A stretch of 64,000 nt of DNA from Cellulophaga sp. F20128 (GTDB lineage: Bacteria; Bacteroidota; Bacteroidia; Flavobacteriales; Flavobacteriaceae): NCBI RefSeq assembly GCF_023015805.1, contig NZ_JALKBA010000008.1, forward strand, positions 62,001-126,000, given 5' to 3'. The notes under the pieces were generated by a model. The model was not told the origin of the DNA, searched no databases, and saw only the letters and a program-made list of their open reading frames with translations. Of this stretch, positions 29,244-57,956 are shown piece by piece. Within the stretch, counting starts at the first letter, position 1; the number at the start of each line of letters is the position of its first letter. A program made the position numbers and the translations under genes.

Positions 29244-32200
29244 TTATTTTACAACTTCAACCCAATTTCCTTTTGTACGCACAACATAGCCATTATCATA
29301 CATTGCTTCCGCCTGTATACCTGGCAAATAATAGGTGCCTAAATACGAGGCATTTAACAAAATTCGGAATGTTTTTGTTTCCTTCGCATCTAAATCAAAA
29401 TAAAAGTTTGCCCTATCATCACGTAAATCTGTATGGGTTACATCATTGGCTGCAAAATCTCCGAAATCCGTAAATCGAGTATTTACTATTTCCCACCCAC
29501 TAGGAAAAATTTGAGTTAAGGCAACATCATTCACTTTGTCTGCTGTTGTATTTGTTAAGGTCACCTCTGCCACAAAATCTGAACCTTGACTCATCTCAGA
29601 AACATTAATTACACTTCCATTTCTAGCCTTATATTGTACTTTGGCCTCTATGTTCTTCTGTAGTGTTTTTTCTGTTCCAACGGGCAACTTCCCATTATTT
29701 AGGAGGCTTACATACAAGGTATTTCCTTCTGTGTTTTTTAACAGTAGGGCATTGCTTCCTTTTTGTACACTAAGCCTTCTATTCGCCAAGGTCTTCTCTG
29801 TAGCTACAATTTCTTGCTTTCCGTTAACGGTAAGACTAGCATGAACACCTTTTCCTCCAACCATTTCCGCAAATTTAGTCATTGCCAAAAGGCTGTATGC
29901 TGTACTTTGAGTGCTCATATACTCATTTGTATTTAGCTTTTTTGCCAGTTCTTTTGCTAATTGTTGCGCCTTTACTTTTTCTTCTAACAACACCATTGTT
30001 TCTAAAGCCATTGCCCTGTTCCTAGCTGATGAACCATAGGTTTCATAATGCTTAGTAGCATTAAACTCTAAAACTGCTGTGTTCATTAATTTGTTTGCCA
30101 CAGATTTCTGACCTATATGTGCATAGGTTGCTGCTAATCTTAATTTAGCTTCATTAGATAGGTTTTTAGTTTCTTGTAATCTGTTCATAGATGCCACATC
30201 TGCACTACCTGCCAAGGCTAGGGTATACAAACGATAGGCCTGTGACAAATCGGAATTTCCATTGTTATCCCTATAGTTTTTTGCCGAATTTTGTTGATAG
30301 GTTAACCATTTGGATTTAAATCCAATAGGAAGTACATATCCTCTCTTTTCGGCTTCCAACATAAAGTGTCCAACGTAAGACGTGCTCCAATCATTCGCGT
30401 TATTTTGTCCATACCAGTAAGCCATTCCACCGTTAAATATTTGAAATCCAGCCAAACGATTTATAGCGCCATCTATGTTCCTTTGCACTTCTTGTTTCTG
30501 AAGCAATGAAACATCAAAAATAGCTGCTAAAAATAGCTGTGGAAATGCGGCTGAAGTAATTTGCTCTAAACACCCATGTGGATACCGAATTAGGTATTGC
30601 ATTCTCCCATTAAAATTCATTGGAGGCAAGGTAGATAATTCAATAGAGGCAGAATTTGTTCCGGTTACTCCAAAAGTTTCCAAGGCGATTGATTTTTCAC
30701 TATTTGGTTCTAAAACAAAATCTTGAACTTCCGTCGTCATAGGGTTTGGATTTACAACATCAATAGGAATTTCAAAGGATGCTTTTTCCGTTCCAGAAGT
30801 TGCTTCAACAACCACTTTTCCAATCCCTTTAAAATCTGCAACTTTCAAGGTAAAATATACCATTTTTTCATCTGGCTGTTCAAATGAAATGGATGTTGAA
30901 TTACCTCCTTCAATAGTAAATGCTTTATCATCCTTAATGGTAACCCTTACGTTTTTTACATTTTTTTCCATTGCAAAAACAGTGATAGGCAAGGTTACTT
31001 TTTCTCCAGGTGTAATTTTACGCGGTAAAGAGCCAAGGATCATCAAGGGCTTGCGAACCGGAGTTGTTTTTTCCGTACTTCCATAGGCTCCATTTTCTGC
31101 CTGTGCAGCTACGACCATAGTTCTAACCGATCCCACATATTTTGGAATTTTTATTTTGTGTGCTTTCGTTTCCCCTTCCTTTAATTGAAAAGGACCTAAA
31201 TGCACCACCATTGGTTCAAACCTATTGGCTTTTTTGTTTTTAGCGCCTGCCAGTTCATCATCTCCTCCAATGGCAAACACCTGATTAATTCGGCCACCAA
31301 AAGCTCCAATAACATCATCGTAAATATCCCATGTTTTAACACCCAAAGCTTCGTTTGCATAAAAAGTGTCCCAAGGGTTAGGGGTTTTAAATCGGGTTAA
31401 ATCTAACAAACCTTCATCTACAATGGCAATACTATAAGTCATTGGTTTTTTATTGTGCTCACTTACGGCCACAGTAATGGTCTCTTCTGGACGTAATACC
31501 TCTGGCATTGCAATTTTAGGCGCTAACTTTGTATGTTCATCTGATACTGAAATAGGTATTACCCCATACATTCGTATTGGCAAATCATTTAAAGTAGATG
31601 CATGGGGTTGTAATAAAGAGATATGTATAAATACATTGGGGGTGTATTCTGCCGTCATAGGAACTGTAAATTTAGTTTCCCCTTTTGTAGTTTCTACCCA
31701 TAGCGATTTTAGCACTTCACTTCCATTTTCTACGGTTACCAAAGCTCTTGCACCATCTGAACTAGGGAAGGTAATTGTTGCTGTTTCTCCAGTGTTGTAA
31801 CTCTCCTTATCGGCTGAAAACAATAACATAGTCGCTGCAGACGGATCGTTCTTTTTAGATTTCCCTGCCCATCCTGGCCAATCTATATATATAGTTTCTC
31901 CTGTAGCATGCCCTCCGTATTCGTCTTCAATACGCACTAAATATCTTCCCCAATCTGGATATTTTAATTCGAATTCAAAATTTGCTTTTCCATTGGCATT
32001 TGTGTTGATCGTTTTTTCGAAAATTTTATTTCGATAACCACTGCTTCCATAATGAGACAGGTTATCTTCGGAAGTATCCCACCACCATCTCCATTCTATT
32101 TTATGAACACTTACTTTTAAATTTTTAGTAGCTTTTGGTTTTCCCTTTTCATCTACCGTAACCACCTCAAAATTATGTTTTACATCGGTGAGCAACATTC

Positions 32201-34751
32201 CTTTAGAGGCGTCACCCTTAGGTACATTAAGTCCAACATAGGTGTTGTAAGGCGAGTATGATTTTGTAAATACATCGGTACTAAAATCTCCTCCATTTTC
32301 ATACACCTTAGTAACAAAGGCAGCCTGTAACATCCCCGGAGGGTTACTTCCAAGTTGTGGATTTAAAGAAAATTTTGCTTTTCCTTCAGCATCAACCTTA
32401 CCTGTAAAAACTACTTGTTCTTCTACTGAAAAACTCCTACTAGGATCATCAAAAACATAGGCAGGAAAAGTAGGAAATGCAGTAGTCACAACATTGAACT
32501 TGGCGGCTATATCTGTTTTCAAATTTTTAGCTATTGCTCCATGGAGCCATTTTACTTCCATTGTTCCCTTGATCGGTTCTCCACCAACCAACAGTTCTGC
32601 TTCAAAATCATTTTTAATTTTTAAGCGATTGGGTTTTATAGTTTCTATTTTAATGGTTTTCGAAAATTGTGCACCTCCTACAGAAACTTTTGCAAGCCAA
32701 TTTCCGGTAGGGGCATCTTGGTCTGTTTGAAGTGTAAAATTGTAGAAATTATGTAACCCACTTGTTTTTACCTCCCTATGAACCACTTTATTATAGGGGT
32801 CTATCAATTCTATTTTAACCGGGTGATTTGCTGGTAGTTTATTAGCATTGTCATTTAAAACAAAAGACAAAAACAGGGCATCTCCTGGTCGCCAAACCCC
32901 GCGTTCTCCAAAAATAAACCCTTTAATCCCTTTTTGTAATTTTACACCGGCCACTTTAAACTTACTTACAGATAGGGTATTCCCATCATTGAGCTTTAGG
33001 TATGTTTTTTGGCCCTTGTGTTCGGCTACTGCAAAAAAGGCAACACTTTCTGCATCAAAAAATGACATCCCTTCTGCATTTGTGGTTACAGAACCAATGT
33101 TTTGTTCCTGAAAATTGTAAAAACTAATTTTAGCCCCGGCAATTGGTTTGGTAGTCAACAAATCTGATGTTACCACCAAATAACTATTATTAGCCCCCTT
33201 TTTAACAGTAATACCAATATCTGTTGCCAGCACATTTACACTAGCATTTTTTGTTCTGTAGTATGAGGTATGGCAGGGATTCTCCCTTTCGTTCCAATCA
33301 TAATCATACCCGTAATCATAATAATAGTCCGAATAGTCCCAGTAACTATTTTCTGTTTCATCATCAAAAGAATCTGTTTCCTCCTCTTCTATAGCTTCAA
33401 AGTTGGTGCTTTCACAGGTATACAGACTATACTGTGGTTTAAATGAAAACACGACCCTATAAATTGCTCCTTTTTCTGGTGTAATTAATTCTGTTAAGTC
33501 CAAAGCATGTGCGTTCCACTTCCCATTATTTACCGATAAATTATCTTGCAATTGTAGCTTTTTCCCCGCAATTGGCCGGGCAACTCTGCGCAACTCATTA
33601 CTGCCGTCTAGATTGCTAACTTGTAAAAACTGCAATACATTATCCTCATAAATCCGAAAGATCTTTACGTCTACAGCGCTTAAATTTACGGCTTCAAAGT
33701 TCACCTTTAAGTTTGACGAAGAAGGCAATATAGACCCATTTGATAAAACTCTAACCTGGGGCTTTATCTCTTCAAAGGCTACGCGTTCTTCATATTTATT
33801 TTTTAGCTTATAGCCATCTGCACTTTGAATCCCATCAAAAACTTCTATTAAAATTGTACCTGTATGATTCGTAGAAGGGTAAACACTTAGGGTGGTACTA
33901 TTTACTGAAAACTTAGGATTGGGATCATTGGGCAAAACAATTAGTCCTTTAAAGTTCTGATCTTTTTTTATGGGGTCTGAAAAATTGATTTTAACAACAG
34001 GGCTTTCTGCTTGTGCTACACTAATATTTAAGATTGAAAAATTACTTTTTCCTGGAACTTTTATACTGCTTTTCCCCTCGGTCTCTATATCAAAACTTTT
34101 TCCACTGTATGCGATCTCTAATGCTGAATCTTCGGTAAGACGGGGAATACTATCTATCTTAAATTGAAATTGTGTCCCACTTTCCGGTTGATTACTAAAT
34201 GTAACCGCAATATTTTGTCCATTGTGCGAAACATTTATTAACTTTTTTGCCACTTCTAAAGTAAGTTCATCTGCACTTCTAATCTGTCCTTCTATATATT
34301 GGTACGCCTTAGAATACGCTTGCATAGGACTTGTATTTACACTAAACTCTTGTTTAATTGTATGCACAAAAAATGCAAATTCAGCCAAATCATCCGGGAC
34401 ATCATCGTAAATTTTATCCAAATCTAATTGAACCGTATACTTCGTATGCTGCCGTAAGGCCTCTTCGGGCGTAAAAATTAAGGTTTTGCTATTTACAGCC
34501 TTTAATGTTCCCTTAATTTTTGGGGAAATTTTCAGTAGCGTATGATCTAACTTAGTTTCCTTACTCCATGCAGCAACTGGTTTGGTCAAAACAATTTGAA
34601 TATTGGTCCTGGTCGATATTATCCCATGGGTATATTGAGAAACATATTCGGCATAATCAATTGCAGAAACTGAATCTACCACTGTAGGTCCTTTTTTACA
34701 TCCAATTATTAAACTAATAAGGAAGAAATAGAGCACAAATTTTATTCTCAT
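29244..34751 (-). CDS. Bacterial alpha-2-macroglobulin family lipoprotein
   Basis: 1835 residues. Lipobox LIIGC with lipidated Cys18. Tandem MG domains start about residue 40; an acidic Tyr/Asp-rich insertion lies between two Cys (about residues 445-500); the bait/A2M_N_2 region follows; the core A2M domain carries the typical YVGSVRTMVVAAQ; and the thioester domain has GCLEQ at 1393-1397, with Cys1394 and the Gln spaced for a thioester as in CxEQ. A C-terminal receptor-like domain ends with VEVVK. Members trap or inhibit proteases that reach the periplasm and are paired with PBP1C in repair or defence of the cell wall; pbpC is 1.9 kb downstream on the same strand. Signal, length and thioester are intact. 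Confidence 0.93.
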   Translation of the reverse strand: MRIKFVLYFFLISLIIGCKKGPTVVDSVSAIDYAEYVSQYTHGIISTRTNIQIVLTKPVAAWSKETKLDHTLLKISPKIKGTLKAVNSKTLIFTPEEALRQHTKYTVQLDLDKIYDDVPDDLAEFAFFVHTIKQEFSVNTSPMQAYSKAYQYIEGQIRSADELTLEVAKKLINVSHNGQNIAVTFSNQPESGTQFQFKIDSIPRLTEDSALEIAYSGKSFDIETEGKSSIKVPGKSNFSILNISVAQAESPVVKINFSDPIKKDQNFKGLIVLPNDPNPKFSVNSTTLSVYPSTNHTGTILIEVFDGIQSADGYKLKNKYEERVAFEEIKPQVRVLSNGSILPSSSNLKVNFEAVNLSAVDVKIFRIYEDNVLQFLQVSNLDGSNELRRVARPIAGKKLQLQDNLSVNNGKWNAHALDLTELITPEKGAIYRVVFSFKPQYSLYTCESTNFEAIEEEETDSFDDETENSYWDYSDYYYDYGYDYDWNERENPCHTSYYRTKNASVNVLATDIGITVKKGANNSYLVVTSDLLTTKPIAGAKISFYNFQEQNIGSVTTNAEGMSFFDAESVAFFAVAEHKGQKTYLKLNDGNTLSVSKFKVAGVKLQKGIKGFIFGERGVWRPGDALFLSFVLNDNANKLPANHPVKIELIDPYNKVVHREVKTSGLHNFYNFTLQTDQDAPTGNWLAKVSVGGAQFSKTIKIETIKPNRLKIKNDFEAELLVGGEPIKGTMEVKWLHGAIAKNLKTDIAAKFNVVTTAFPTFPAYVFDDPSRSFSVEEQVVFTGKVDAEGKAKFSLNPQLGSNPPGMLQAAFVTKVYENGGDFSTDVFTKSYSPYNTYVGLNVPKGDASKGMLLTDVKHNFEVVTVDEKGKPKATKNLKVSVHKIEWRWWWDTSEDNLSHYGSSGYRNKIFEKTINTNANGKANFEFELKYPDWGRYLVRIEDEYGGHATGETIYIDWPGWAGKSKKNDPSAATMLLFSADKESYNTGETATITFPSSDGARALVTVENGSEVLKSLWVETTKGETKFTVPMTAEYTPNVFIHISLLQPHASTLNDLPIRMYGVIPISVSDEHTKLAPKIAMPEVLRPEETITVAVSEHNKKPMTYSIAIVDEGLLDLTRFKTPNPWDTFYANEALGVKTWDIYDDVIGAFGGRINQVFAIGGDDELAGAKNKKANRFEPMVVHLGPFQLKEGETKAHKIKIPKYVGSVRTMVVAAQAENGAYGSTEKTTPVRKPLMILGSLPRKITPGEKVTLPITVFAMEKNVKNVRVTIKDDKAFTIEGGNSTSISFEQPDEKMVYFTLKVADFKGIGKVVVEATSGTEKASFEIPIDVVNPNPMTTEVQDFVLEPNSEKSIALETFGVTGTNSASIELSTLPPMNFNGRMQYLIRYPHGCLEQITSAAFPQLFLAAIFDVSLLQKQEVQRNIDGAINRLAGFQIFNGGMAYWYGQNNANDWSTSYVGHFMLEAEKRGYVLPIGFKSKWLTYQQNSAKNYRDNNGNSDLSQAYRLYTLALAGSADVASMNRLQETKNLSNEAKLRLAATYAHIGQKSVANKLMNTAVLEFNATKHYETYGSSARNRAMALETMVLLEEKVKAQQLAKELAKKLNTNEYMSTQSTAYSLLAMTKFAEMVGGKGVHASLTVNGKQEIVATEKTLANRRLSVQKGSNALLLKNTEGNTLYVSLLNNGKLPVGTEKTLQKNIEAKVQYKARNGSVINVSEMSQGSDFVAEVTLTNTTADKVNDVALTQIFPSGWEIVNTRFTDFGDFAANDVTHTDLRDDRANFYFDLDAKETKTFRILLNASYLGTYYLPGIQAEAMYDNGYVVRTKGNWVEVVK

Positions 34752-39422: not shown

Positions 39423-39475
39423 GTAACACTAAAAACCCCGATTCATATATAAAGAATCGGGGTTTTTAGTGTTAC
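39423..39475. terminator. 22-bp perfect bidirectional terminator
   Basis: Arms 39423-39444 and 39454-39475 are perfectly complementary over 22 bases around a 9-base loop. The stem has a GC core (CCCCG/CGGGG) between A-rich and T-rich parts so that each direction carries its own U run inside the arm. It sits exactly between two convergent genes, 9 bp after the HhH gene and 12 bp before the end of the desaturase gene. Confidence 0.9.
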
Positions 39476-39486
39476 CATTTATGGCA

Positions 39487-40482
39487 TTAAATCCTTCCGT
39501 TAGCCTCTACCCATTTAAAATGGTATTGGTCCTGATCATACTTCATTCGCTCCGAAATACGTTCTAATCGAGAAGGAAGCTTGGTTAAATAATCCCTTGC
39601 TTTTTCTGCCGAATCATTTAAACCTCTTAAATTTTCAACATCCCAATAATTGTTCAACTTCTTAAGGATTTCTATATAATCTTGCGCCGTATAAACACCC
39701 AATCGTTGAGCACAATTCGAGAAGGTTTCAAATGCCGTTCCAATTTCCCCGCCAGATTCCCGTAAAAAATGTGCTGGCATAACAATTTTTCTTTTCATCA
39801 TATCTGCAAAAGCAAGCAACATACCATTCGGATCTTGGTCCATAATGGTTTTCACAAATTCTCGGTAGGCCAAATGATGGCGCATTTCATCACCAGCAAT
39901 AATGGTACACATTTTACCCAATAAGGTATTTCCTTTTTTCTTCGCCATTTGTCCCACACGTTTGTGAGATATATTTGTTGCTAATTCTTGAAATGAAGTA
40001 TAAATAAAGTTTTTGTATGGATCTCTATCTGTTCCTATATCAAAACCATCTGCAATAAGATGCTGGGTCGTAATTTCTACTTCTCTCATATTTACCCTTC
40101 CAGATAAATACAAATATTTATTGAGCACATCTCCATGTCTGTTTTCTTCAGCAGTCCATTGTCGAACCCATTTTGACCACCCGTTTTCATTACCACTATG
40201 TTGGTCTATACCTTCAACATCCATTAGCCATGATTCATAGGTTGGTAAGGCCTCTTCCGTAATAGTATCTGCCACTAAAGTTACCCAAAAATCATAACCA
40301 AGTTCTTTCGCTTCTTCTCTAATTTGCTCTACTTCATTAAAAAAGTTATCGCTTTGAGAATCGGGTAAAAAATCCGTTGGCTGCCATATTTTTTCAATAG
40401 GAACTAGGTAAGAATCTATAAAACCTTCTACCTTGCCCTCAATGGCCTTCATTACTTCTAATCGTATATTGTGTGCAGACAT
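39487..40482 (-). CDS. Acyl-ACP desaturase (soluble di-iron type)
   Basis: 331 residues. The ferritin-like di-iron motifs EENRHGD and DEMRHH are intact, together with SWLMDVEGID and FIYTSFQELATNISHKR. These are typical of the plant/actinobacterial stearoyl-ACP desaturase family, soluble enzymes that insert a cis double bond into saturated acyl-ACP using ferredoxin and oxygen. It is the last gene of the leftward cluster beginning with the SPFH gene (36 bp after the metallophosphatase) and ends against a 22-bp terminator. Products would tune membrane fluidity, which fits an envelope-related cluster by inference only. Confidence 0.92.
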   Translation of the reverse strand: MSAHNIRLEVMKAIEGKVEGFIDSYLVPIEKIWQPTDFLPDSQSDNFFNEVEQIREEAKELGYDFWVTLVADTITEEALPTYESWLMDVEGIDQHSGNENGWSKWVRQWTAEENRHGDVLNKYLYLSGRVNMREVEITTQHLIADGFDIGTDRDPYKNFIYTSFQELATNISHKRVGQMAKKKGNTLLGKMCTIIAGDEMRHHLAYREFVKTIMDQDPNGMLLAFADMMKRKIVMPAHFLRESGGEIGTAFETFSNCAQRLGVYTAQDYIEILKKLNNYWDVENLRGLNDSAEKARDYLTKLPSRLERISERMKYDQDQYHFKWVEANGRI

Positions 40483-40518
40483 ATTAATGGTTCTTTTTAC
40501 AAAGGTCGTTAATAATTT

Positions 40519-41244
40519 TTAATTCCTACCTTTTTGATTCGGATAAAACGTAAAGACATTGTTACTTTGCCACACTTCTTTTGTACGAATATCCATTACA
40601 GATAATGGTCCTCTAAAAGCTGCTCCTGTATCTATATTATAGACATTGGCTCCATTTTGAGGCGTAGTTTCCCCGATGCGCGTAACCGGAGTATGTCCAA
40701 TATACACTTCTTTGTATTGCAACAGACGTTTTGGGTAGAGCTTGTCTTCTTTCGATAAATTAGGGTCTACAGAAAGTGCTAATTCCCATAAGGTTCTATC
40801 CCAATAGAATAGTTTTTCAAAATATTCAAAGTCCACTCCCTTTAAGTTTGTAAAACCAGCATGTAAAAAAAGTCTATTTTCATCATCCAAATAATAATTT
40901 TCAAGACCATCGAAAAACTGAATGTGTTGCTCTTTTGTATTCGGATCTAGAGAGGCATAAGAATCCATAGTAGCTTGACCGCCATGTAAAACCCAAGTAG
41001 CGTTTTGGTTGCCTGTCTTTAACCAATCTGCACAAAGTTCATCGTGATTTCCCCGAATAAAGGTGCAATTATGTGTGGTTTTTAAATCGATTAAATAATT
41101 GATTGTCGCTACAGCTTCACTCCAACCATCAACATAATCTCCTAAAAAAATAAGGTGATCATTAGGAGTTACAGCCGCATTTTTTAACACTTGTTGCAAT
41201 GCTTTTAGTCCAGAATGAATATCTCCAATTACTAATTTTCTCAT
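40519..41244 (-). CDS. Metallophosphoesterase (Ser/Thr phosphatase-like)
   Basis: 241 residues. PPP-type motifs: GDIHSG (residues 7-12), GDYVDGW, GNHDE, LHAGF and GHTPVT, i.e. a complete two-metal site. It resembles bacterial PrpA/ApaH-like phosphatases; whether the substrate is a phosphoprotein or a dinucleotide polyphosphate cannot be told. Its ATG overlaps the stop of the zinc-ribbon gene by 4 bp, so translation is coupled. Cytoplasmic. Confidence 0.92.
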   Translation of the reverse strand: MRKLVIGDIHSGLKALQQVLKNAAVTPNDHLIFLGDYVDGWSEAVATINYLIDLKTTHNCTFIRGNHDELCADWLKTGNQNATWVLHGGQATMDSYASLDPNTKEQHIQFFDGLENYYLDDENRLFLHAGFTNLKGVDFEYFEKLFYWDRTLWELALSVDPNLSKEDKLYPKRLLQYKEVYIGHTPVTRIGETTPQNGANVYNIDTGAAFRGPLSVMDIRTKEVWQSNNVFTFYPNQKGRN

Positions 41245-42323
41245 TGGGCAAAGAACGCAAATAGCGCAATAATAATCACAATAAATAGGACCAAAAAGAA
41301 TATTTTCCAGAAAGAATAAGGCCTTGAACTGCTTATTTTTCCGGTTTGCCCATTGACATAAAAACGGTATTCTTTGCCATTATACGTATAAGAACTAATA
41401 TATATGGGTAACAAAACATGTTTAAATTTTTCATCTGATAATTTTATATCTGCATGATGTATCTGTTGTGTATCTCCACCAATATCACGTCGAATCCATT
41501 GATACGCAATTTCTTTTGCTTTTTTAAACGATTGATGATGCCCTTCTTTCAGCGAAATCGTATACTTTTCCGTGACAAAGCCCGCTAAATACTTAGAAGT
41601 AAAAGGTTGCAACTCTTTAAGGTTCCAAAAGGAAACACTGGTCGGAATTTCGCGTTGTTTTTTCTCTGAAGCATTGATTAAAATATCATCAACAAAGCCG
41701 TTTACCCGACCAGATGCAGGGTGCCATCTTGTTTTCCGAACCTGTCTTGTTTTGGTGCCATTTTTAGTTTTGTAGGTTTGTGTTACATAATAATACTCAC
41801 CCCTTTGCCCTTGGTAGTCTGCAGTCATATTAGCATCAAATGTCCAATGCGGCACATACAAGCCATGTATACTTTCTGGATCTAAGGCTGCTCTTTTTAG
41901 TTTATTGGGAGCAAACCAAATACCACCTACCCATTTTTTAAAAATACTTCCTGCCTTTTTAGCATCCAATTGAAAAGGCACAACGGCACTAGGCAAAATC
42001 CACCCCTCCTTTTCAATATCTTCACGAATTAAGGGCTCACTACAATACACACATTGGAGCGACTTAAAGTTTTCTTCAATATGCTGATTGGCGCCACAGT
42101 TTTTACAGTGTAACAAATCTATAGTTTCTGTATAGGCATTATCACCAACAGCTTTTAGATAATGCTGTAGTTCTAACTCTTCAAAACTACTTTTGGCTTG
42201 CTCAATAAATTCTTCATAGCCACAATAGCCACACGCCAATTGTTGTGAACCAGGTTTGTATTTTAACTCAGCACCACAATTGGCACAGGGTTTATTTTGT
42301 TCAGATTGTTTTAATTCTTCCAT
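41241..42323 (-). CDS. Zinc-ribbon membrane protein (YdjG-like)
   Basis: 360 residues. Two N-terminal zinc ribbons: Cys13/Cys16 with Cys31/Cys34, and Cys73/Cys76 with Cys91/Cys94 (CANCG...CGYC and CKNCG...CVYC). A middle beta-rich domain with WFAPNKL and the YYVTQTYKTKNGTKTRQV region is followed by a C-terminal transmembrane helix (about 338-358, FFLVLFIVIIIALFAFF). The plan matches the TFIIB-type zinc-ribbon protein that accompanies SPFH proteins in YdjF-YdjI-like envelope stress loci of Firmicutes. Here it stands with an SPFH gene (42625) in the same leftward cluster; PspA is absent. Role inferred, not shown. Confidence 0.75.
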   Translation of the reverse strand: MEELKQSEQNKPCANCGAELKYKPGSQQLACGYCGYEEFIEQAKSSFEELELQHYLKAVGDNAYTETIDLLHCKNCGANQHIEENFKSLQCVYCSEPLIREDIEKEGWILPSAVVPFQLDAKKAGSIFKKWVGGIWFAPNKLKRAALDPESIHGLYVPHWTFDANMTADYQGQRGEYYYVTQTYKTKNGTKTRQVRKTRWHPASGRVNGFVDDILINASEKKQREIPTSVSFWNLKELQPFTSKYLAGFVTEKYTISLKEGHHQSFKKAKEIAYQWIRRDIGGDTQQIHHADIKLSDEKFKHVLLPIYISSYTYNGKEYRFYVNGQTGKISSSRPYSFWKIFFLVLFIVIIIALFAFFAQ

Positions 42324-42385
42324 AAAATTACCTCATAGCAAAGGGTGAAATTCCCTGCACAATCAGTTGTTTCAATGCTACATAG

Positions 42386-42607
42386 CTACAGCACATTAAA
42401 TAAGTTACGCTTTTCATCAAACCAATGTTTCATTGCTACAGGATTCATACTTCGCATTTGCTCCATTGCCTCAAGATGAGCTACATCACCCTCCAGAAAC
42501 ATTTCCCTACCGTGCTTTTTACTTTGTGCTGCTATTTCTTCAAAAGTAGCACCATAAAATTCCATTGCACATGCTCCCCCCAACTGTTTACATGTCATTT
42601 TTTTCAT
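42386..42607 (-). CDS. DUF1059-family small protein
   Basis: 73 residues. The N-terminal MTCKQLGGACAMEF and the FEEIAAQSKKHG segment fit DUF1059, a family of small cytoplasmic proteins of unknown function with conserved Cys and Gly residues that may bind metal. It lies 17 bp after the SPFH gene and 62 bp before the zinc-ribbon gene, in the same direction. Confidence 0.8.
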   Translation of the reverse strand: MKKMTCKQLGGACAMEFYGATFEEIAAQSKKHGREMFLEGDVAHLEAMEQMRSMNPVAMKHWFDEKRNLFNVL

Positions 42608-42624
42608 ACTTCTAAAATTTCATA

Positions 42625-43761
42625 CTATGCTCCAGGTAATGGCGGAGGTGTATTACCCCCTAAAAATACTTTTAACTCTTCTATTTCATTTAGTGCGGCC
42701 CAATTAGCCATTCCTTGTTTCCAAAGTAATGTTTCTTTATTTATCGTCCTGTTGGCAAAAAGTTCCTTTAGTTTCTCAAACCCAACAGGGCCCATTTGTT
42801 GGCCATTTGTAGCATAAAAATACATAGTTTGTACCGGCATTGGAGGAGGCACTGCTGCTCCCTGAGGTACTTGTGCTGCTGCAGGCTGCTGCATCTGAGG
42901 ATTTATCATCCCACCCATTTGTTGGGCCAATACAAAACCCATTCCCATTCCCATACCTGCTCCTGCTGTACCCCCTTCGTTTTTAGCTGCAGCTTCAATG
43001 GCTTTGGCTGTTTTAAATTGGGTTAACTTACCCATATCCAACTTATCGAGCCTACTGTACTCAAAAATTTCCTTTTTAAGTTCTTCCGGCATGGATACAT
43101 TTTCTATATAAAACTTCTCCAACTCTATACCTACCCGACCAAATTCTGGCTGCATAACATCTTGACAAGTTTCAGAGAGTTCAGACGTATTTGCCGCATA
43201 CAACTCTATTGGCAAATTGGCCTCACCTACGGTATCTGTAAAACGTGTAACTATTAAACTTTTTAAATGCTCATTCACTTCATAATTTGTGAAATTACCA
43301 TCAGTTCCTACGACATCTACTACAAATTTACCTGCATCTATGATCCTAAAACTATAGGTCCCGAAAGCCCTTATTTCTGTAAGTCCAAAGCGAGAATCGC
43401 TTAACATTATTGGATTTTTGGTGCCCCACTTTTCATCTGTAAACAATCGAGTGTTTACAAAATAAACCTCGGCCTTAAACGGACTATTAAAACCATATTT
43501 CCAACCTTTTATGGTGGTTAATAGGGGTAAATTCTGAGTGTTTAGCGTGTAGGTTCCTGGTTTAAAAACATCCGCCAATTGACCCTCATTGACAAAAACA
43601 GCCACTTGCCCTTCTCTTACGATAAGCTTGGCGTTGTTTTTAATTTCATTTTGGTAACGTTCAAAACGGTGTACAATGGTATCATTGCTATTGTCTAACC
43701 ATTCTATGATATCTATAAACTCGTGACTTAATTTCTTTTTAATTTCATCAAATATTCCCAT
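42625..43761 (-). CDS. SPFH-domain protein with C-terminal GYF_2 domain (YdjI-like)
   Basis: 378 residues with no N-terminal membrane helix or signal. Residues 25-250 form an SPFH (band 7) domain as in YdjI/virion-core-like proteins: IVREGQVAVFVNEGQLADVFKPGTY and IENVSMPEELKKEIFEY. A Gly/Met/Gln/Pro-rich linker (about 260-310) leads to a GYF_2 (DUF4339) domain near the C-terminus (YFYATNGQQMGPVGF ... LLWKQGMANWA). It is the first gene of the leftward cluster, 17 bp before DUF1059. SPFH proteins build oligomeric rings on membranes. The lone -7 element upstream is not obvious. Confidence 0.85.
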   Translation of the reverse strand: MGIFDEIKKKLSHEFIDIIEWLDNSNDTIVHRFERYQNEIKNNAKLIVREGQVAVFVNEGQLADVFKPGTYTLNTQNLPLLTTIKGWKYGFNSPFKAEVYFVNTRLFTDEKWGTKNPIMLSDSRFGLTEIRAFGTYSFRIIDAGKFVVDVVGTDGNFTNYEVNEHLKSLIVTRFTDTVGEANLPIELYAANTSELSETCQDVMQPEFGRVGIELEKFYIENVSMPEELKKEIFEYSRLDKLDMGKLTQFKTAKAIEAAAKNEGGTAGAGMGMGMGFVLAQQMGGMINPQMQQPAAAQVPQGAAVPPPMPVQTMYFYATNGQQMGPVGFEKLKELFANRTINKETLLWKQGMANWAALNEIEELKVFLGGNTPPPLPGA

Positions 43762-43884
43762 TTGGTTGTGTTTTTATAAATTTCTTAAACAAGGTAGTGA
43801 AATTAGTAAAACTTAAAAAAAGGTTTAATTCTTTTTTTACCTTAAAATTCAAAAACTAGCCTGAAGTTGTATTTTTTCTATCAT

Positions 43885-44089: not shown

Positions 44090-46648
44090 ATGGCAACTCA
44101 AATACTACAAAAAATAAGAAAAACCCACTCCCAAGAAGAGGTACTCAAAGCCACCTCCAATTATTTCAAAGGAGACGATTTAGCAGCACAGGTATGGTTA
44201 AACAAGTATGCGCTAAAGGATTCTGAAGGTAATATTTATGAGTTAACACCAGATGATATGCATCGCCGTATTGCCAAAGAAATTGGGCGCGTAGAACAAC
44301 AATACAAAAACCCTTTAAGTGAAAGTGAAATTTTCGACCTTATTAAAGATTTTAAATACATTGTTCCCCAAGGCAGCCCAATGGCTGGAATAGGCAATCC
44401 TTTTCAAATAGCATCACTTTCTAATTGTTTTGTAATTGGAAATGATGGCAAATCTGATTCTTATGGGGGTATTATGAAAATTGATGAAGAACAGGTGCAA
44501 TTAATGAAAAGACGTGGGGGTGTAGGCCACGACCTTTCTCACATAAGACCCAAGGGTTCTGCCGTAAAAAATTCGGCTTTAACCTCAACGGGCCTTGTTC
44601 CATTTATGGATCGCTATTCTAACTCTACTAGAGAAGTTGCTCAGGATGGCAGAAGAGGCGCATTGATGCTCTCTGTTTCTATTAATCATCCTGACGCAGA
44701 AGATTTTATAGATGCAAAAATGGAACAAGGGAAAGTAACAGGAGCTAACATTTCTGTGCGTATAGACAACGAATTCATGCAATCTGTTGAAAACAATAGC
44801 CCTTATGTACAGAAATTCCCAATTCACAGTCCTTCACCAAAGGTGAGTAAAACCATAAATCCGAATAAACTATGGAATAAAATAGTACACAATGCATGGA
44901 AATCTGCAGAACCTGGTATTTTGTTTTGGGACACTATTATCAAGGAATCTGTTCCTGATTGTTATACCGATTTTGGCTTTAAAACCGTGTCTACAAACCC
45001 TTGTGGTGAAATTCCGCTTTGTCCTTACGATTCGTGTCGCCTTTTAGCCATCAATTTATTTTCATATGTGGACAACCCTTTTACCAATAAGGCCACTTTT
45101 AACCAAGAATTGTTTAAAAAGCATATTGGAGTAGCCCAGCGTATGATGGATGATATTATTGATCTTGAATTAGAAAAGATTGATGCTATTTTAGAAAAAA
45201 TCCACTTAGACCCAGAACTAGAAGAAACAAAAAGTGCAGAGTACAATTTATGGAAAAAAATTAAAGAAAAAGCCATTCAAGGGCGTCGTACCGGAATTGG
45301 CATTACAGCAGAGGGCGATATGCTCGCAGCGTTAGGACTCCAATACGGAAGCAAAGACGCCAATGTGTTTTCTGTTGAAGTTCATAAAACCATCGCATTA
45401 GAAGCCTATAGAGCATCTGTAAATACCGCCAAAGAAAGGGGAGCATTTCAGGTTTTCGATGCAAATCTTGAAAAAAACAATCCGTTTATTTTACGCCTAA
45501 AGGAGGCCGATGAAAAATTGTACGATGATATGTTAAAATATGGTCGCAGAAACATCGCCTTACTAACTATTGCCCCTACAGGCACTACAAGCTTAATGAC
45601 CCAAACTACCTCGGGCATAGAGCCGGTTTTTCTACCTGTGTATAAACGTCGTAGAAAAGTAAACCCTAATGATGTAGGGGTGAATATAAATTTTGTAGAT
45701 GAAGTTGGAGATTCTTGGGAAGAATATGTTGTATTTCACCACAGATTTAAACAGTGGATGTCTGTAAATGGATATGATACTGCTAAAAAATACAGTCAGA
45801 AAGAAATAAATGAATTGGTACAGAAATCCCCATATCACAAAGCCACATCCAATGATGTGGATTGGATGAGCAAAGTTAAACTGCAGGGCGCCGTTCAAAA
45901 ATGGGTAGACCACTCTATAAGTGTTACCATTAATTTACCAAACAACGCCTCAGAAAAACTGGTTGGCGAATTGTACCTTGAAGCTTGGAAAGCAGGTTGT
46001 AAAGGAGTTACAGTTTACAGAGACGGTTCTAGATCTGGAGTCTTGATTTCAAATGACGAAAAAAGTGACGATGATAACGATGCCGAAACCCTAACAAATT
46101 TTCCATCCAAACGACCTGAAACTGTTGAAGCCGACATTGTACGATTTCAAAACAACAAAGAAAAATGGATTGCTTTCATAGGGCTAATTGACGGGAATCC
46201 TTATGAGATATTTACGGGCTTGGAAGATGATGAAGATGGTATTTTAATACCACGCTGGGTCAACAAAGGATTGATCATTAAAAATAGAGACGAAAATGGC
46301 ATTTCTAGGTATGATTTTCAATATAAGAATAAACGAGGTTACAAAACCACCATTGAAGGCTTATCACATAAATTTAATCCTGAATACTGGAATTACGCCA
46401 AATTAATTTCAGGGACCTTACGCCATGGTATGCCTATTGAAAAAGTAGCAGATTTAATCAATAGTTTACAGCTCAACAACGAATCTATAAATACATGGAA
46501 AAATGGAGTGGCACGAGCTTTAAAAAAGTATGTAGTAGACGGAACTAAAGTTAAGGGTCAAAAATGTGAGAATTGCAATTCCACGACCCTTATTTACCAA
46601 GAAGGCTGTCTAACCTGTAAGGATTGTGGATCTTCAAAATGTGGATAA
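44090..46648 (+). CDS. nrdJ: Adenosylcobalamin-dependent (class II) ribonucleotide reductase
   Basis: 852 residues, the length of the class II enzymes of Bacteroidota. It makes deoxyribonucleotides from ribonucleotides using vitamin B12, without oxygen. Active-site landmarks: SNCFVIG, the NPCGEIPLCPYDSCRL region with the radical-transfer Cys, RRGGVGHDLSHIRP, and PTGTTSLMTQTTSG. The C-terminal tail carries a Cys-rich relay (CENC, CLTC, CKDC) for re-reduction. No B12 riboswitch is visible upstream and no class Ia (nrdAB) genes are in the window. It has its own promoter and faces the AlbA_2 gene convergently. Confidence 0.96.
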   Translation: MATQILQKIRKTHSQEEVLKATSNYFKGDDLAAQVWLNKYALKDSEGNIYELTPDDMHRRIAKEIGRVEQQYKNPLSESEIFDLIKDFKYIVPQGSPMAGIGNPFQIASLSNCFVIGNDGKSDSYGGIMKIDEEQVQLMKRRGGVGHDLSHIRPKGSAVKNSALTSTGLVPFMDRYSNSTREVAQDGRRGALMLSVSINHPDAEDFIDAKMEQGKVTGANISVRIDNEFMQSVENNSPYVQKFPIHSPSPKVSKTINPNKLWNKIVHNAWKSAEPGILFWDTIIKESVPDCYTDFGFKTVSTNPCGEIPLCPYDSCRLLAINLFSYVDNPFTNKATFNQELFKKHIGVAQRMMDDIIDLELEKIDAILEKIHLDPELEETKSAEYNLWKKIKEKAIQGRRTGIGITAEGDMLAALGLQYGSKDANVFSVEVHKTIALEAYRASVNTAKERGAFQVFDANLEKNNPFILRLKEADEKLYDDMLKYGRRNIALLTIAPTGTTSLMTQTTSGIEPVFLPVYKRRRKVNPNDVGVNINFVDEVGDSWEEYVVFHHRFKQWMSVNGYDTAKKYSQKEINELVQKSPYHKATSNDVDWMSKVKLQGAVQKWVDHSISVTINLPNNASEKLVGELYLEAWKAGCKGVTVYRDGSRSGVLISNDEKSDDDNDAETLTNFPSKRPETVEADIVRFQNNKEKWIAFIGLIDGNPYEIFTGLEDDEDGILIPRWVNKGLIIKNRDENGISRYDFQYKNKRGYKTTIEGLSHKFNPEYWNYAKLISGTLRHGMPIEKVADLINSLQLNNESINTWKNGVARALKKYVVDGTKVKGQKCENCNSTTLIYQEGCLTCKDCGSSKCG

Positions 46649-46690: not shown

Positions 46691-47827
46691 CTAATTATAC
46701 CTCACCTTTCTTAAAATTCGGAAAGCTTCTTTTAGAGATTGGTACACTTCTTTGTTGTGTTTTTTTATGATAGGTTTTGCTTTTTCCATTTGCGGCAATG
46801 CCTCTAGAAAATCATTTAGGTAACAAATTAAATACGTATCAGGCAGATGATTAAGGTCTTCCTGTTCCGCGGTTGTTAGTTTTATATTTTTTTCTAATTT
46901 GTCAATCAAAGCAACGTTGGTATTGAAAATGTGATGCAGCGTTTTTTTATCATACTGGGGTGGTTCAAAAATTAAATCGCTCTGAATAAAGTATTTTCCA
47001 TTATGATTAAAGGTAATCACCACTTTTTCAAATGGATAATACTTTTGTTGCTTTCCCAAGCCGAGTTGCACATATTCTGTTGTTGTAAAAGAATCCTCAT
47101 CGAAGGCAATGGTGATTTCATCAAAAATGGAATAAAACAATTTTACCTGTTCATTAATTAACTCTATATCCACTCGAGAATAATACAGCTGTTCCTTTAT
47201 TTTATTCTGATTTCCGGCCCAACAAACCACAAACTGCTCCTTAAAAACTTTGTAGTAACTGGGCAGATCTTTATGCCTATTGTTTATAAAATCGATTACT
47301 CCGTCAAGGGTGAGCTCAATATTGTTTTTAGCGTGTTGTTCTATCGTAGTAACAGCATTAGAATTAATATCCTTTAATTCTATTCCATAAGCCTTAGGCA
47401 TACTAATACTTCCTTCCCTAAAAAAAACAGTGCCGCCATAATATTTCCAAATATTCTTACTTAAGACACATACTTTCCCGTTAGATTTAATGGTAACCAA
47501 ACCTACCACCTTACCTTCAGGAAGATGTGGAAACGGAATATTCTCATAAGATATAGCTGGAGCGTTATTGATATAGGCGTTTACTAAATTTTGAATTTTG
47601 CTATCATCAAAAAAATCAACTCCCACAATAGTATTACCCTCATCTTCTACACCTACAACGATAAAAGAATTGTTTTTGGGATTGCTATTGGCCAAAGCAC
47701 AAACATGTTTTAAAAACTTTGCTTTTCCTTCCTTTTGTCCAATGTCTATAAATCGCTTTTTATCATAAAAACTATTCTCATCATTATGAGCTAACAAGTT
47801 TTTTACTAATAGGCGCTTGTTAATCAT
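46691..47827 (-). CDS. AlbA_2 (Schlafen-like) domain ATP-binding protein
   Basis: 378 residues. The N-terminal 150 residues form an AlbA_2/Schlafen-type domain (KEGKAKFLKHVCALANSNPKNNSFIVVGVEDEGNTIVG in outline: FLKHVCALANS, GVEDEGN, LVNAYINNAPAI), a fold seen in Schlafens and in many prokaryotic regulatory or nucleic-acid-related proteins. The C-terminal part is alpha/beta of unknown type. No signal or membrane segment. Its start overlaps the end of the SDR gene by 8 bp, so it is cotranscribed with SDR and aldo/keto reductase genes; the biological link is unknown. Confidence 0.82.
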   Translation of the reverse strand: MINKRLLVKNLLAHNDENSFYDKKRFIDIGQKEGKAKFLKHVCALANSNPKNNSFIVVGVEDEGNTIVGVDFFDDSKIQNLVNAYINNAPAISYENIPFPHLPEGKVVGLVTIKSNGKVCVLSKNIWKYYGGTVFFREGSISMPKAYGIELKDINSNAVTTIEQHAKNNIELTLDGVIDFINNRHKDLPSYYKVFKEQFVVCWAGNQNKIKEQLYYSRVDIELINEQVKLFYSIFDEITIAFDEDSFTTTEYVQLGLGKQQKYYPFEKVVITFNHNGKYFIQSDLIFEPPQYDKKTLHHIFNTNVALIDKLEKNIKLTTAEQEDLNHLPDTYLICYLNDFLEALPQMEKAKPIIKKHNKEVYQSLKEAFRILRKVRYN

Positions 47828-49633: not shown

Positions 49634-50635
49634 ATGGAAGAAAATACTACAGTAGATATTAGCGCAGTGAATGAGAAGATTGCCAAAGAAAGTGCTTTTA
49701 TCGATCTACTAATGTTAGAGATGAACAAGGTTATTGTAGGTCAAAGACATATGGTAGAACGCTTGTTAATTGGTTTATTAGGTCAAGGACATATCTTGTT
49801 AGAAGGGGTTCCTGGTTTGGCAAAAACATTAGCAATAAACACTTTGGCCAAGGCAGTTCAAGGCAAATTTAGCAGAATACAGTTTACACCAGATCTTTTG
49901 CCTGCAGATGTGGTAGGTACAATGATTTTTAATATGAAAGAGAATGATTTCTCTATTAAAAAAGGACCAATTTTCGCCAATTTCGTTTTGGCTGATGAGA
50001 TCAATAGGGCGCCAGCAAAGGTTCAATCTGCCTTGTTAGAAGCTATGCAGGAAAAACAAGTGACCATTGGGGATACAACTTTTATTTTAGAAAAGCCTTT
50101 TCTGGTAATGGCCACCCAAAACCCAGTGGAGCAAGAAGGTACTTATCCACTGCCCGAAGCACAAGTTGACCGTTTTATGTTAAAAACAGTAATTGATTAT
50201 CCTAAGTTTAATGAGGAGCAATTAATTATGCGACAAAACTTAAAAGGGGCGTATGACGAGGTGAAACCCGTTGTAAGTGTACAGCAAATCATTGATGCTC
50301 AAAAAGCAGTAAGGGATGTGTATATGGATGAAAAGATTGAGAAATACATCTTGGATTTAATATTTGCCACACGATACCCTGAAAAGTACAACCTAGAAAA
50401 ATTAAAACCACTAATAAGCTTTGGAGCTTCTCCTCGTGGAAGTATTAATCTTGCCACAGCAGCCAAATGTTATGCTTTTATAAAACGAAGAGGATATGTT
50501 ATTCCTGAAGATGTAAGGGCAGTTGTACATGATGTTCTTAGACATAGAATAGGAATTACCTACGAAGCTGAAGCTGAAAACATAACTTCGGAAGACATCA
50601 TTAATAAGATCGTAAACGAAGTTGAAGTGCCTTAA
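49634..50635 (+). CDS. MoxR family AAA+ ATPase (BatR)
   Basis: 333 residues. Walker A GVPGLAKT, Walker B with LADEINRAPAKVQSALLEAM, sensor regions MATQNPVEQEGTYPLPEAQ and the C-terminal lid SFGASPRGSINL. It is the first gene of the bat cluster. MoxR ATPases act as chaperones that, with DUF58/VWA partners, assemble or activate other protein complexes. Cytoplasmic. The gene is 79 bp before the DUF58 gene. Confidence 0.95.
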   Translation: MEENTTVDISAVNEKIAKESAFIDLLMLEMNKVIVGQRHMVERLLIGLLGQGHILLEGVPGLAKTLAINTLAKAVQGKFSRIQFTPDLLPADVVGTMIFNMKENDFSIKKGPIFANFVLADEINRAPAKVQSALLEAMQEKQVTIGDTTFILEKPFLVMATQNPVEQEGTYPLPEAQVDRFMLKTVIDYPKFNEEQLIMRQNLKGAYDEVKPVVSVQQIIDAQKAVRDVYMDEKIEKYILDLIFATRYPEKYNLEKLKPLISFGASPRGSINLATAAKCYAFIKRRGYVIPEDVRAVVHDVLRHRIGITYEAEAENITSEDIINKIVNEVEVP

Positions 50636-50714
50636 ATCAGTCGTTAATAATTAGTCCCAGTTGTCAGTTTACCAAAAAAACTGTGCCTGAATACGTATTA
50701 ATGCAAGCTGAAAA

Positions 50715-51581
50715 ATGGATACCAAGGAATTACTTAAAAAAGTTCGTAAAATTGAGATAAAGACGAGACGTCTTTCCGACCATATATTTGGTGGGGAATA
50801 CCACTCTACCTTTAAAGGAAGGGGTATGACGTTTAGTGAAGTACGTCAATACCAATTTGGTGATGATGTGCGCGCCATAGATTGGAATGTTACAGCCCGC
50901 TACAACGAACCCTATATTAAGGTTTTTGAAGAAGAAAGAGAGCTTACCATGATGCTTATGGTGGATGTGAGTGGCTCCGAACATTTTGGAACTACCAATC
51001 AATTTAAGAACGAAATTATAACTGAGATTTCTGCGACATTAGCATTTTCTGCCTTACAGAATAATGATAAGGTGGGTTTAATTTTATTTTCTGATGAAGT
51101 AGAACTTTTTATTCCACCAAAAAAAGGAAAAAGTCACGCTCTACGTATTATCAGGGAGCTTTTAGAATTTAAACCGAAAAGCACAAAGACCAATTTATCT
51201 GAAGCGTTAAAGTATTTAACAAACGTGATGAAAAAGAAAGCTATTGTTTTTGTGCTTTCAGATTTTATTACAGAAGATTACTTACAAACATTGCGTATCA
51301 CTGGAAAAAAACATGACCTTACAGGCATCCGGGTTTTTGATGAACGTGAAGAAAGCATTCCAAACATAGGAATGGTACAAATGCAAGACGCCGAAACCGG
51401 GGCTTTAAAATTGGTAAATACGCAATCTAAGTCAGTACGTAAGGCCTACAGCAAATACTACCATGAAAAGGTGGCTTATTTTACAGAAACCTTTACCAAA
51501 TCTGGTTGTGGTGTGCTCAGTTGTAGGGTAGATGAAAGCTACGTAAAAAAACTATTAGGTTATTTTAAGCGAAGAGGATAA
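50715..51581 (+). CDS. DUF58 domain-containing protein (Bat cluster)
   Basis: 288 residues. DUF58 signature (FGGEYHSTFKGRGMTFSEVRQYQFGDDVRAIDWNV in outline: GRGMTFSEVRQY, GDDVRAIDWN) and a VWA-like region with VDVSGSEHFG as metal-site motif. No membrane segment. It pairs with the MoxR ATPase in many bacteria. Its TAA stop shares one base with the next ATG (51581), so translation is coupled. Confidence 0.94.
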   Translation: MDTKELLKKVRKIEIKTRRLSDHIFGGEYHSTFKGRGMTFSEVRQYQFGDDVRAIDWNVTARYNEPYIKVFEEERELTMMLMVDVSGSEHFGTTNQFKNEIITEISATLAFSALQNNDKVGLILFSDEVELFIPPKKGKSHALRIIRELLEFKPKSTKTNLSEALKYLTNVMKKKAIVFVLSDFITEDYLQTLRITGKKHDLTGIRVFDEREESIPNIGMVQMQDAETGALKLVNTQSKSVRKAYSKYYHEKVAYFTETFTKSGCGVLSCRVDESYVKKLLGYFKRRG

Positions 51582-53242
51582 TGATCGTAAAATTTAAAAA
51601 ATTACAACGTATAAAAAACCTATCGTTTTACAAACGATACGCTTTCCTATTCTTTATTTTCTGCTCCATTTTTGGTTATTCTCAAACGACACCAAAGGTT
51701 ACAGCGAATATTGATACAACCGCTATCCGAATCGGGGAACAAATAAATTATACTATTCTTGTAGAAGCCGATTCTACCGCACAGGTAATCTTCCCTGAAG
51801 ACCAAACCTTTTCTCCTTTAGAAATGGTAGAAGCCTTAAAAATAGACACTTCTAAATATCAAAATAGAATTACCCTTCAACGCACTTATGCCTTAACTCA
51901 GTTCGATTCTGGGGCCTATACCATTCCACAACAACGCTTGGACATCAACGGATTGGCATTTTTTACAGACTCAATAAAGGTAAATGTAGGAACGGTTGCA
52001 GTAGATACATTTGCCCAAAAAATGTACGATATAAAACCCTTAATTGCTGTAGACAAAAGTACCGATCTACCATGGTTAAAAATAGGGTTAATCTTAGGGG
52101 GAATTCTACTTTTGGCTGGACTCATCTATTGGTTTGTGTTGCGTAAAAAACCATTAACTGAAGAAGAAAAAATTGCACTTTTACCGCCTTATGATCGGGC
52201 ATTATTAGAGTTGAAAAAATTAGAAAATTCCAAATACATCATTCAAGACGAATACAAGGAGTATTATTCCGAATTAACGACCATTGTTCGGTTGTATTTG
52301 GAGGAGGATGCACATGTTTCTGCGCTAGAAAGTACTACAGACCAACTTATCGATAAATTAGAACTGCTCAAAGATGCTGGGGAGTTAAAACTAGATGACG
52401 AAACTATTCTACAGTTTAAAAAGGTTTTACAAACAGCCGATTTAGTAAAATTCGCAAAGAAAAAACCAGAAACATCTGTGGCAGAGCAAGATAGAGCTCT
52501 TATTGAACAAATAGTTGTAAAAACCCATGATGCCCTACCAGAACCTACGGAAGAAGAATTGTTAGAAAATGAAGAATATCTAGAGGCATTGGCACTCAAA
52601 AAAGAAAAGAAAAAATGGATAATAGCCACAGTGATATTTTTTGGCGCAATCCTTATAAGTACAGCTGCAGCCATTGCTTACTATGGTTTAGCAACGGTAA
52701 AGGATACTGTTTTTGGTCATCCTACTAAAGAGTTATTAGAAGAAGAATGGGTTTCTAGCACCTATGGATATCCACCCATTACTTTAGAAACACCTCAAGT
52801 GCTACTCAGGCAGCAAATTACGCTTCCGCCAGAAGCTAAAGAAAGTATTAAGGAGTTGCAAATGTTTGCCTATCGCAGTGGTATGGGTTTATTTACGGTT
52901 AGTGTATCGGCGACCACTTTTGCAAATCCAGAAACAGAACCAGATTTTAATCAGGTCACAGATCAAATGCTAAAAAGTTTTGAAGCCAATGGCGCCAAAA
53001 ACATTACTACAAAACAAGAAGATTTTACAACCCTTACTGGTACTAAGGGGTTAAAAACTTATGGCACAGGAAAGTTTGCTGTTCCAAATTCTAAAGAATT
53101 AGTGAATGGCAAGTATGCTATTATTAGTTTTGGTGGCAAAGGCTTTCAACAACAAGTATTGGTTTCTTGGCTGGCAGAAGATGTATATGCAGAACAAATT
53201 GTAGCCCGTATTTTTAATTCAATTGAAGTTAAAACAGAATAA
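51581..53242 (+). CDS. Bat-cluster membrane protein, BatD-like N-terminus and DUF4381-like core
   Basis: 553 residues. A basic N-terminus and first hydrophobic segment (signal/anchor, about 20-36), an extracytoplasmic BatD-like beta domain (about 38-160), a transmembrane helix (about 167-188, LILGGILLLAGLIYWFVL), a cytoplasmic helical DUF4381-like part (about 195-345; LLPPYDRALLELKKL), a second helix (about 350-370) and a 190-residue extracytoplasmic C-terminal domain. In many Bacteroidota this locus has only the shorter DUF4381-like protein, so the C-terminal extension is a lineage feature. Translationally coupled to the DUF58 gene and one base from batA. Confidence 0.8.
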   Translation: MIVKFKKLQRIKNLSFYKRYAFLFFIFCSIFGYSQTTPKVTANIDTTAIRIGEQINYTILVEADSTAQVIFPEDQTFSPLEMVEALKIDTSKYQNRITLQRTYALTQFDSGAYTIPQQRLDINGLAFFTDSIKVNVGTVAVDTFAQKMYDIKPLIAVDKSTDLPWLKIGLILGGILLLAGLIYWFVLRKKPLTEEEKIALLPPYDRALLELKKLENSKYIIQDEYKEYYSELTTIVRLYLEEDAHVSALESTTDQLIDKLELLKDAGELKLDDETILQFKKVLQTADLVKFAKKKPETSVAEQDRALIEQIVVKTHDALPEPTEEELLENEEYLEALALKKEKKKWIIATVIFFGAILISTAAAIAYYGLATVKDTVFGHPTKELLEEEWVSSTYGYPPITLETPQVLLRQQITLPPEAKESIKELQMFAYRSGMGLFTVSVSATTFANPETEPDFNQVTDQMLKSFEANGAKNITTKQEDFTTLTGTKGLKTYGTGKFAVPNSKELVNGKYAIISFGGKGFQQQVLVSWLAEDVYAEQIVARIFNSIEVKTE

Positions 53243-54241: not shown

Positions 54242-54256
54242 ATTAAGAAAGACAAA

Positions 54257-55303: not shown

Positions 55304-55304
55304 C

Positions 55305-56171: not shown

Positions 56172-56177
56172 TATACA

Positions 56178-57953: not shown

Positions 57954-57956
57954 CAA

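Follow-up and report, generated by a model that had tools for sequence, protein, structure and literature searches.

The described systems closest to the genes examined here include pspA-ydjGHI of Bacillus subtilis, in which an SPFH protein (YdjI) and a zinc-ribbon partner (YdjG) are encoded together with PspA and the TPM protein YdjH (PMC8581546, PMC11237479). YdjI has no membrane anchor and its placement at the membrane needs both YdjG and YdjH; the contact reported for it in two-hybrid work is YdjH, not YdjG, and cells without YdjI have a more rigid, less fluid membrane (PMC8581546). As published, YdjG consists of two zinc ribbons, a further domain that is YpeB-related and NTF2-like, and a transmembrane (TM) segment (PMC11237479), with the ribbon described as being of a DNA-binding type (PMC9239133). 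The flotillin/NfeD and HflK/C systems share the SPFH fold and a predicted ring assembly, but these proteins carry membrane anchors themselves and work with NfeD or FtsH, whereas the partner at the locus described below is a zinc-ribbon protein, termed ZnR herein.

We analyzed a 64,000-nucleotide stretch of the Cellulophaga sp. F20128 genome (the window, to which all coordinates refer). A run of five leftward genes with small gaps or overlaps, which a preliminary description had reported, was confirmed on the minus strand at 39487-43761, with intergenic distances of 17, 62, -4, and 36 bp in the order SPFH, DUF1059-like, ZnR, phosphatase, desaturase:

42625..43761, minus strand: SPFH (Band_7_1) protein with a C-terminal GYF_2 domain, YdjI-like (Pfam PF13421, 334 bits against a cut-off of 24; PF14237, 67.6 bits)
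42386..42607, minus strand: DUF1059-like small gene, a lineage-specific insertion outside the core
41241..42323, minus strand: ZnR, YdjG-like, with two zinc ribbons, a conserved beta-rich domain, and a TM helix at the C-terminus
40519..41244, minus strand: PPP-type metallophosphatase (Metallophos, 62.5 bits)
39487..40482, minus strand: soluble acyl-ACP desaturase with intact diiron motifs, a neighbor by synteny (FA_desaturase_2, 471 bits)
39431..39467, no strand assigned: terminator-like inverted repeat, bidirectional, read from the sequence, between the desaturase and a convergent gene

The cluster ends, as had been claimed, in a soluble desaturase, whose EENRHGD and DEMRHH (DExRH) diiron motifs align with those of the castor enzyme (1afr). 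The phosphatase ATG overlaps the ZnR stop codon (ATGA). For the small gene, the earlier assignment to DUF1059 survives as a likeness only: the match to PF06348 covers the N-terminal half and falls short of the family cut-off (18.7 vs. 21.1 bits), making it DUF1059-like at best. The Pfam search placed ZnR in no family above its cut-off. The order SPFH-ZnR-phosphatase-desaturase was kept in 18/18 same-genus genomes, so the arrangement is not due to chance, and it also occurs in Maribacter and Zobellia. Elsewhere in the window, a ribonucleotide reductase gene (44090-46648, plus strand) forms a divergent insertion separating DUF5929 and SPFH, which is seen in some Maribacter loci as well (L054-L056, L060) and is missing at that position in most relatives, and an alpha-2-macroglobulin-like bacterial protein of 1835 aa is encoded at 29244-34751 on the minus strand.

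The SPFH protein carries, besides its SPFH domain, a C-terminal GYF_2 domain that the preliminary description had missed and that lies between two proline motifs:

43045..43674, minus strand: SPFH domain, residues 30-239 (Pfam)
42835..42849, minus strand: PPPMP, residues 305-309, on the N-terminal side of GYF_2; PPPxP in 93/99 homologues
42673..42822, minus strand: GYF_2 domain, residues 314-363 (Pfam)
42634..42648, minus strand: PPPLP, residues 372-376, at the C-terminus

In a fold search, the structure model of this protein matched stomatin, HflK/C, prohibitin, and flotillin. A hydropathy scan for a membrane anchor gave no window above 1.6, unlike in flotillins. A C-terminal PPP was present in 96/96 GYF_2-tailed homologues and in 0/3 with other tails, namely, SHOCT (G053), HTH_17 (Comamonas), and a double zinc ribbon (Enterococcus). 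A handful of the GYF_2 tails in this count were identified with Pfam and the rest were assigned by alignment to these; the 96 homologues are not independent, since most are close relatives, although they span Bacteroidota, Alpha- and Gammaproteobacteria, and Actinomycetota. Proline-rich peptides are ligands of GYF domains. Because the GYF_2 domain would bind prolines and is the sole one in the genome by profile search, its simplest ligand would be the protein's own tail, on a neighboring subunit. AlphaFold confidence is low in the tail and a GYF-tail contact is not visible in the model, for which reason we infer this contact rather than read it from the structure.

By sequence, the GYF_2 domain also resembles the GYF domain of a Myxococcus gliding protein (PDB 7z3c, E = 1.3e-5), which has a different architecture, and no relation to gliding is implied. 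A Gly/Met-rich segment (GAGMGMGMGF, residues 266-282, window about 42916-42966) is conserved among homologues and recurs as a similar GMGMGM stretch in the Enterococcus SPFH protein despite its different tail; it may be an oligomer cap or a membrane-contact strand. A phage origin of the SPFH gene was considered and rejected, as nothing was found beyond weak partial matches to unannotated human-gut phage records.

ZnR has four CxxC motifs and a single TM-like stretch, at its C-terminus:

42222..42287, minus strand: first zinc ribbon (C13, C16, C31, C34), cysteines invariant in 24 sequences
42042..42107, minus strand: second zinc ribbon (C73, C76, C91, C94), cysteines invariant in 24 sequences
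41247..41312, minus strand: C-terminal TM helix, residues 338-359 (hydropathy 3.39; helical in the model)

This layout of paired zinc ribbons, middle domain, and TM segment fits the architecture published for YdjG. In Enterococcus gallinarum, genes for an SPFH protein, a ZnR, and a TPM protein are consecutive (L132), which is the ydjGHI gene set, and the ZnR encoded between the other two aligns with ours over its full length (26% identity, E = 1e-36). This homology justifies the label YdjG-like, with B. subtilis YdjG itself matched by its published description only, and it bears out the earlier identification of a YdjI-like SPFH protein paired with a YdjG-like zinc-ribbon protein. PF13421 has matches in B. 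subtilis too. The ZnR model had a pLDDT of 82; a fold search with it against the PDB returned only long-strand pore proteins with TM-scores of <0.2, which we deemed meaningless, and gave no convincing match for the middle domain.

The locus thus resembles pspA-ydjGHI in its anchorless PF13421 protein and in the architecture and proximity of the zinc-ribbon partner. It differs in that neither PspA nor TPM (YdjH) is encoded among the five genes, the SPFH tail is GYF_2 where that of B. subtilis is a zinc ribbon, and the gene order is SPFH-ZnR. The absence of PspA remarked on in the preliminary description extends beyond the locus, with no PF04012 match by profile search in the whole 99.98%-complete genome. 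Three TPM matches were found elsewhere in the genome (contigs C18 and C44), and a PspC-domain protein is encoded on another contig. Across Bacteroidota, PspA showed no association with the pair (4/8 vs. 55/140, p = 0.71). A possible linkage of PspA in a distant genus (g73) was set aside as inconsistent, lying 7 kb from ZnR in one genome (G092) and 19 kb from SPFH in another (G188). The E. gallinarum operon likewise has a homologous ZnR directly after SPFH and no adjacent PspA, but it differs in having TPM as its third gene and a double zinc ribbon as its SPFH tail.

ZnR was present in 25/60 relatives, and the SPFH gene adjoined it at every locus retrieved. Among 148 genomes across Bacteroidota, strong Band_7_1 matches occurred in 11, including 8/8 of those with a strong ZnR (Fisher p = 3.5e-11); the two genes were adjacent in five of these eight, and the remaining three belong to one genus. 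Plasmid records containing ZnR had the SPFH gene next to it in 12/12 cases. Outside Bacteroidota, adjacent pairs were found in Rhodobacterales, Delongbacteria, Vibrio, Paracoccus, Pseudorhodobacter, Comamonas, Tsukamurella, and Enterococcus. This adjacency within and beyond Bacteroidota identifies the pair as the conserved unit, and SPFH-ZnR is a deeply conserved two-gene unit of Bacteroidota, Pseudomonadota, Actinomycetota, and Bacillota. At one Paracoccus locus (L136, 1554-4984), a toxic-anion-resistance (TelA-type) gene and a DUF2927 gene precede the pair, hinting at an envelope-stress context.

The other three genes of the run behaved differently. Downstream of the pair, the desaturase was found in 31/81 loci (at least 3 changes on the tree) and the phosphatase in 41/86 (at least 2 changes), with only the change counts taken from this quickly built tree, which drew long-branch warnings (L043 and others). 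In most lineages neither gene directly follows the pair (Allomuricauda, Aquimarina, Leeuwenhoekiella, Bacteroidales, Rhodobacterales, Vibrio, Tsukamurella). The flavobacterial synteny block reads SDR, DUF5929, (SPFH, ZnR), phosphatase, (desaturase), aldehyde dehydrogenase, 3-hydroxyanthranilate dioxygenase. In two genomes the block lacks the pair: in G024 the order is SDR-DUF5929-phosphatase-desaturase, and in G035 a sugar-kinase-like gene separates DUF5929 from phosphatase-desaturase. Where a phosphatase is present in Aquimarina and Leeuwenhoekiella it adjoins DUF5929, with the pair further on, and Allomuricauda has the pair without these neighbors. Between SPFH and ZnR, an intact DUF1059-like gene is found in G000, G003, G006/C. 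fucicola, and Cellulophaga sp. 20_2_10; it is broken by two stops at the same position in G008 (G008:C8:52045-52269) and unlinked to the pair in other genomes. Only a few Cellulophaga have this local insertion. The phosphatase, desaturase, and DUF1059-like gene are, for the most part, bystanders.

In the window, DUF5929, the steadiest neighbor of the phosphatase across Flavobacteriaceae, is encoded at 46691-47827 on the minus strand and has an N-terminal Schlafen/AlbA_2 domain. MoxR-like ATPase, DUF58-like, and BatA/BatB-like genes (49634-58712, plus strand) form an aerotolerance-type cluster, judged from sequence starts, and such genes also adjoin the SDR-DUF5929 block in G024 and G035.

Of the alternatives to a two-gene unit, the one that fares best adds the PPP-type phosphatase as a third member, with dephosphorylation switching an SPFH-ZnR scaffold. 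The ATGA overlap with ZnR is found in 43/45 phosphatase-linked loci from two separate clades, a pattern compatible with translational coupling and the strongest argument for a third member, and in those clades the phosphatase could be a real third component. However, it is missing downstream of the pair in 45/86 loci, including all non-flavobacterial ones, and its coupling partner in G024, Leeuwenhoekiella, and others is DUF5929, indicating that the phosphatase travels with whichever gene precedes it. We regard a three-gene unit as improbable.

A single operon of pair, phosphatase, and desaturase, sensing membrane damage and adjusting lipid unsaturation, appears more improbable still. The gene order kept within the genus and in Maribacter and Zobellia is what such an operon would predict, as are the 4-bp overlap of ZnR and phosphatase and the recurrence of the same order in a second clade (UBA3179, Aequorivita); moreover, the lower fluidity caused by YdjI loss in B. 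subtilis (PMC8581546) is in the direction expected of desaturase loss. Against these stand the minority of loci in which the desaturase follows the pair and the phosphatase-desaturase arrangements of G024 and G035, which lack the pair. Outside the genus, 16/42 relatives have the desaturase, and its presence was not associated with that of ZnR (p = 0.40). The desaturase also has a promoter-like element of its own directly upstream, and SPFH has one as well:

43790..43796, minus strand: promoter-like element before SPFH, TACCTTG here, of the TAYCTTT type
40500..40515, minus strand: promoter-like element TTATTAACGACCTTTG directly before the desaturase, of the conserved GAnCTTTG type

TAYCTTT was complete in 28/88 SPFH upstream regions (2.5 expected), with near-matches clustering 31-40 nt upstream of the start; in many regions the element lay 31-36 nt ahead of SPFH. 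The GAnCTTTG-type (TTATTnnCGAnCTTTG type) element lay 21-28 nt upstream of the desaturase start in 28/37 regions. Scans of the upstream regions for the canonical Bacteroidota promoter (TTG-N16-22-TAnnTTTG) gave no enrichment. The two elements look like separate promoters, neither being a full textbook match. The desaturase element also comes close to an inverted repeat (TTACGAA-C-TTTGTAA in relatives), and for this reason may instead be where a regulator binds.

The preliminary description had proposed a membrane-maintenance module that included the desaturase, phosphatase, and DUF1059 gene, and had named as evidence against it neighborhoods in related genomes with the desaturase and phosphatase unlinked from the SPFH pair. 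Such neighborhoods are largely what the survey returned, given the patchy linkage of the desaturase, its own promoter-like element, the inserted DUF1059-like gene, and the gene orders of G024 and G035. Separation from the pair is seen for the desaturase and the DUF1059-like gene, and in part for the phosphatase; the enlarged module, with neighbors separable from the pair across loci, is unsupported.

The remaining alternative, a regulatory device in which ZnR would contact nucleic acid at the membrane through its zinc ribbons, with the SPFH protein as its chaperone, is highly improbable, because the TFIIB-like zinc ribbons of the Enterococcus homologue and the HTH tail of the Comamonas SPFH homologue are set against an SPFH fold and a C-terminal ZnR helix that indicate the membrane, and the HTH tail is a single case.

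The reading we favor, and consider probable, is that the SPFH-ZnR pair is the functional unit, a PspA-independent relative of YdjI-YdjG working as a ZnR-anchored SPFH/GYF scaffold, with the desaturase and DUF1059-like gene as neighbors. The C-terminal helix would place ZnR in the inner membrane with the zinc ribbons facing the cytoplasm, and ZnR would recruit the anchorless SPFH protein. This anchoring role is suggested by topology and the Bacillus precedent, in which YdjG and YdjH are both needed and YdjH is the two-hybrid contact. From their fold, SPFH subunits are predicted to build a ring or cage on the membrane, as for HflK/C, flotillin, and stomatin. GYF_2 heads may then bind the PPPxP tails of adjacent subunits or rings, and the cross-linked rings would form a patch that organizes and fluidizes the membrane under envelope stress, the stress role being proposed by kinship with the Bacillus system. 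In some clades the phosphatase would be co-translated with ZnR.

A broader proposal, which we hold only tentatively and consider doubtful, is that these loci represent a PspA-free YdjI/YdjG branch with an interchangeable SPFH head (GYF_2, SHOCT, HTH, or zinc ribbon), in which each subunit of the GYF_2 form would combine a proline-binding domain with its own ligand, so that rings zip to one another as a self-assembling membrane patch and do the work that PspA does elsewhere. We did not find self-cross-linking through a GYF_2 domain and its own proline ligand described in the literature searched.

These results separate the real conserved unit, SPFH plus ZnR, from mere neighbors. Both this flavobacterium and other sampled Bacteroidota have the pair in the absence of PspA, which suggests that the pair may have a PspA-independent core function. 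GYF_2 with its flanking proline ligand offers a concrete, testable route by which an SPFH scaffold may cross-link itself.
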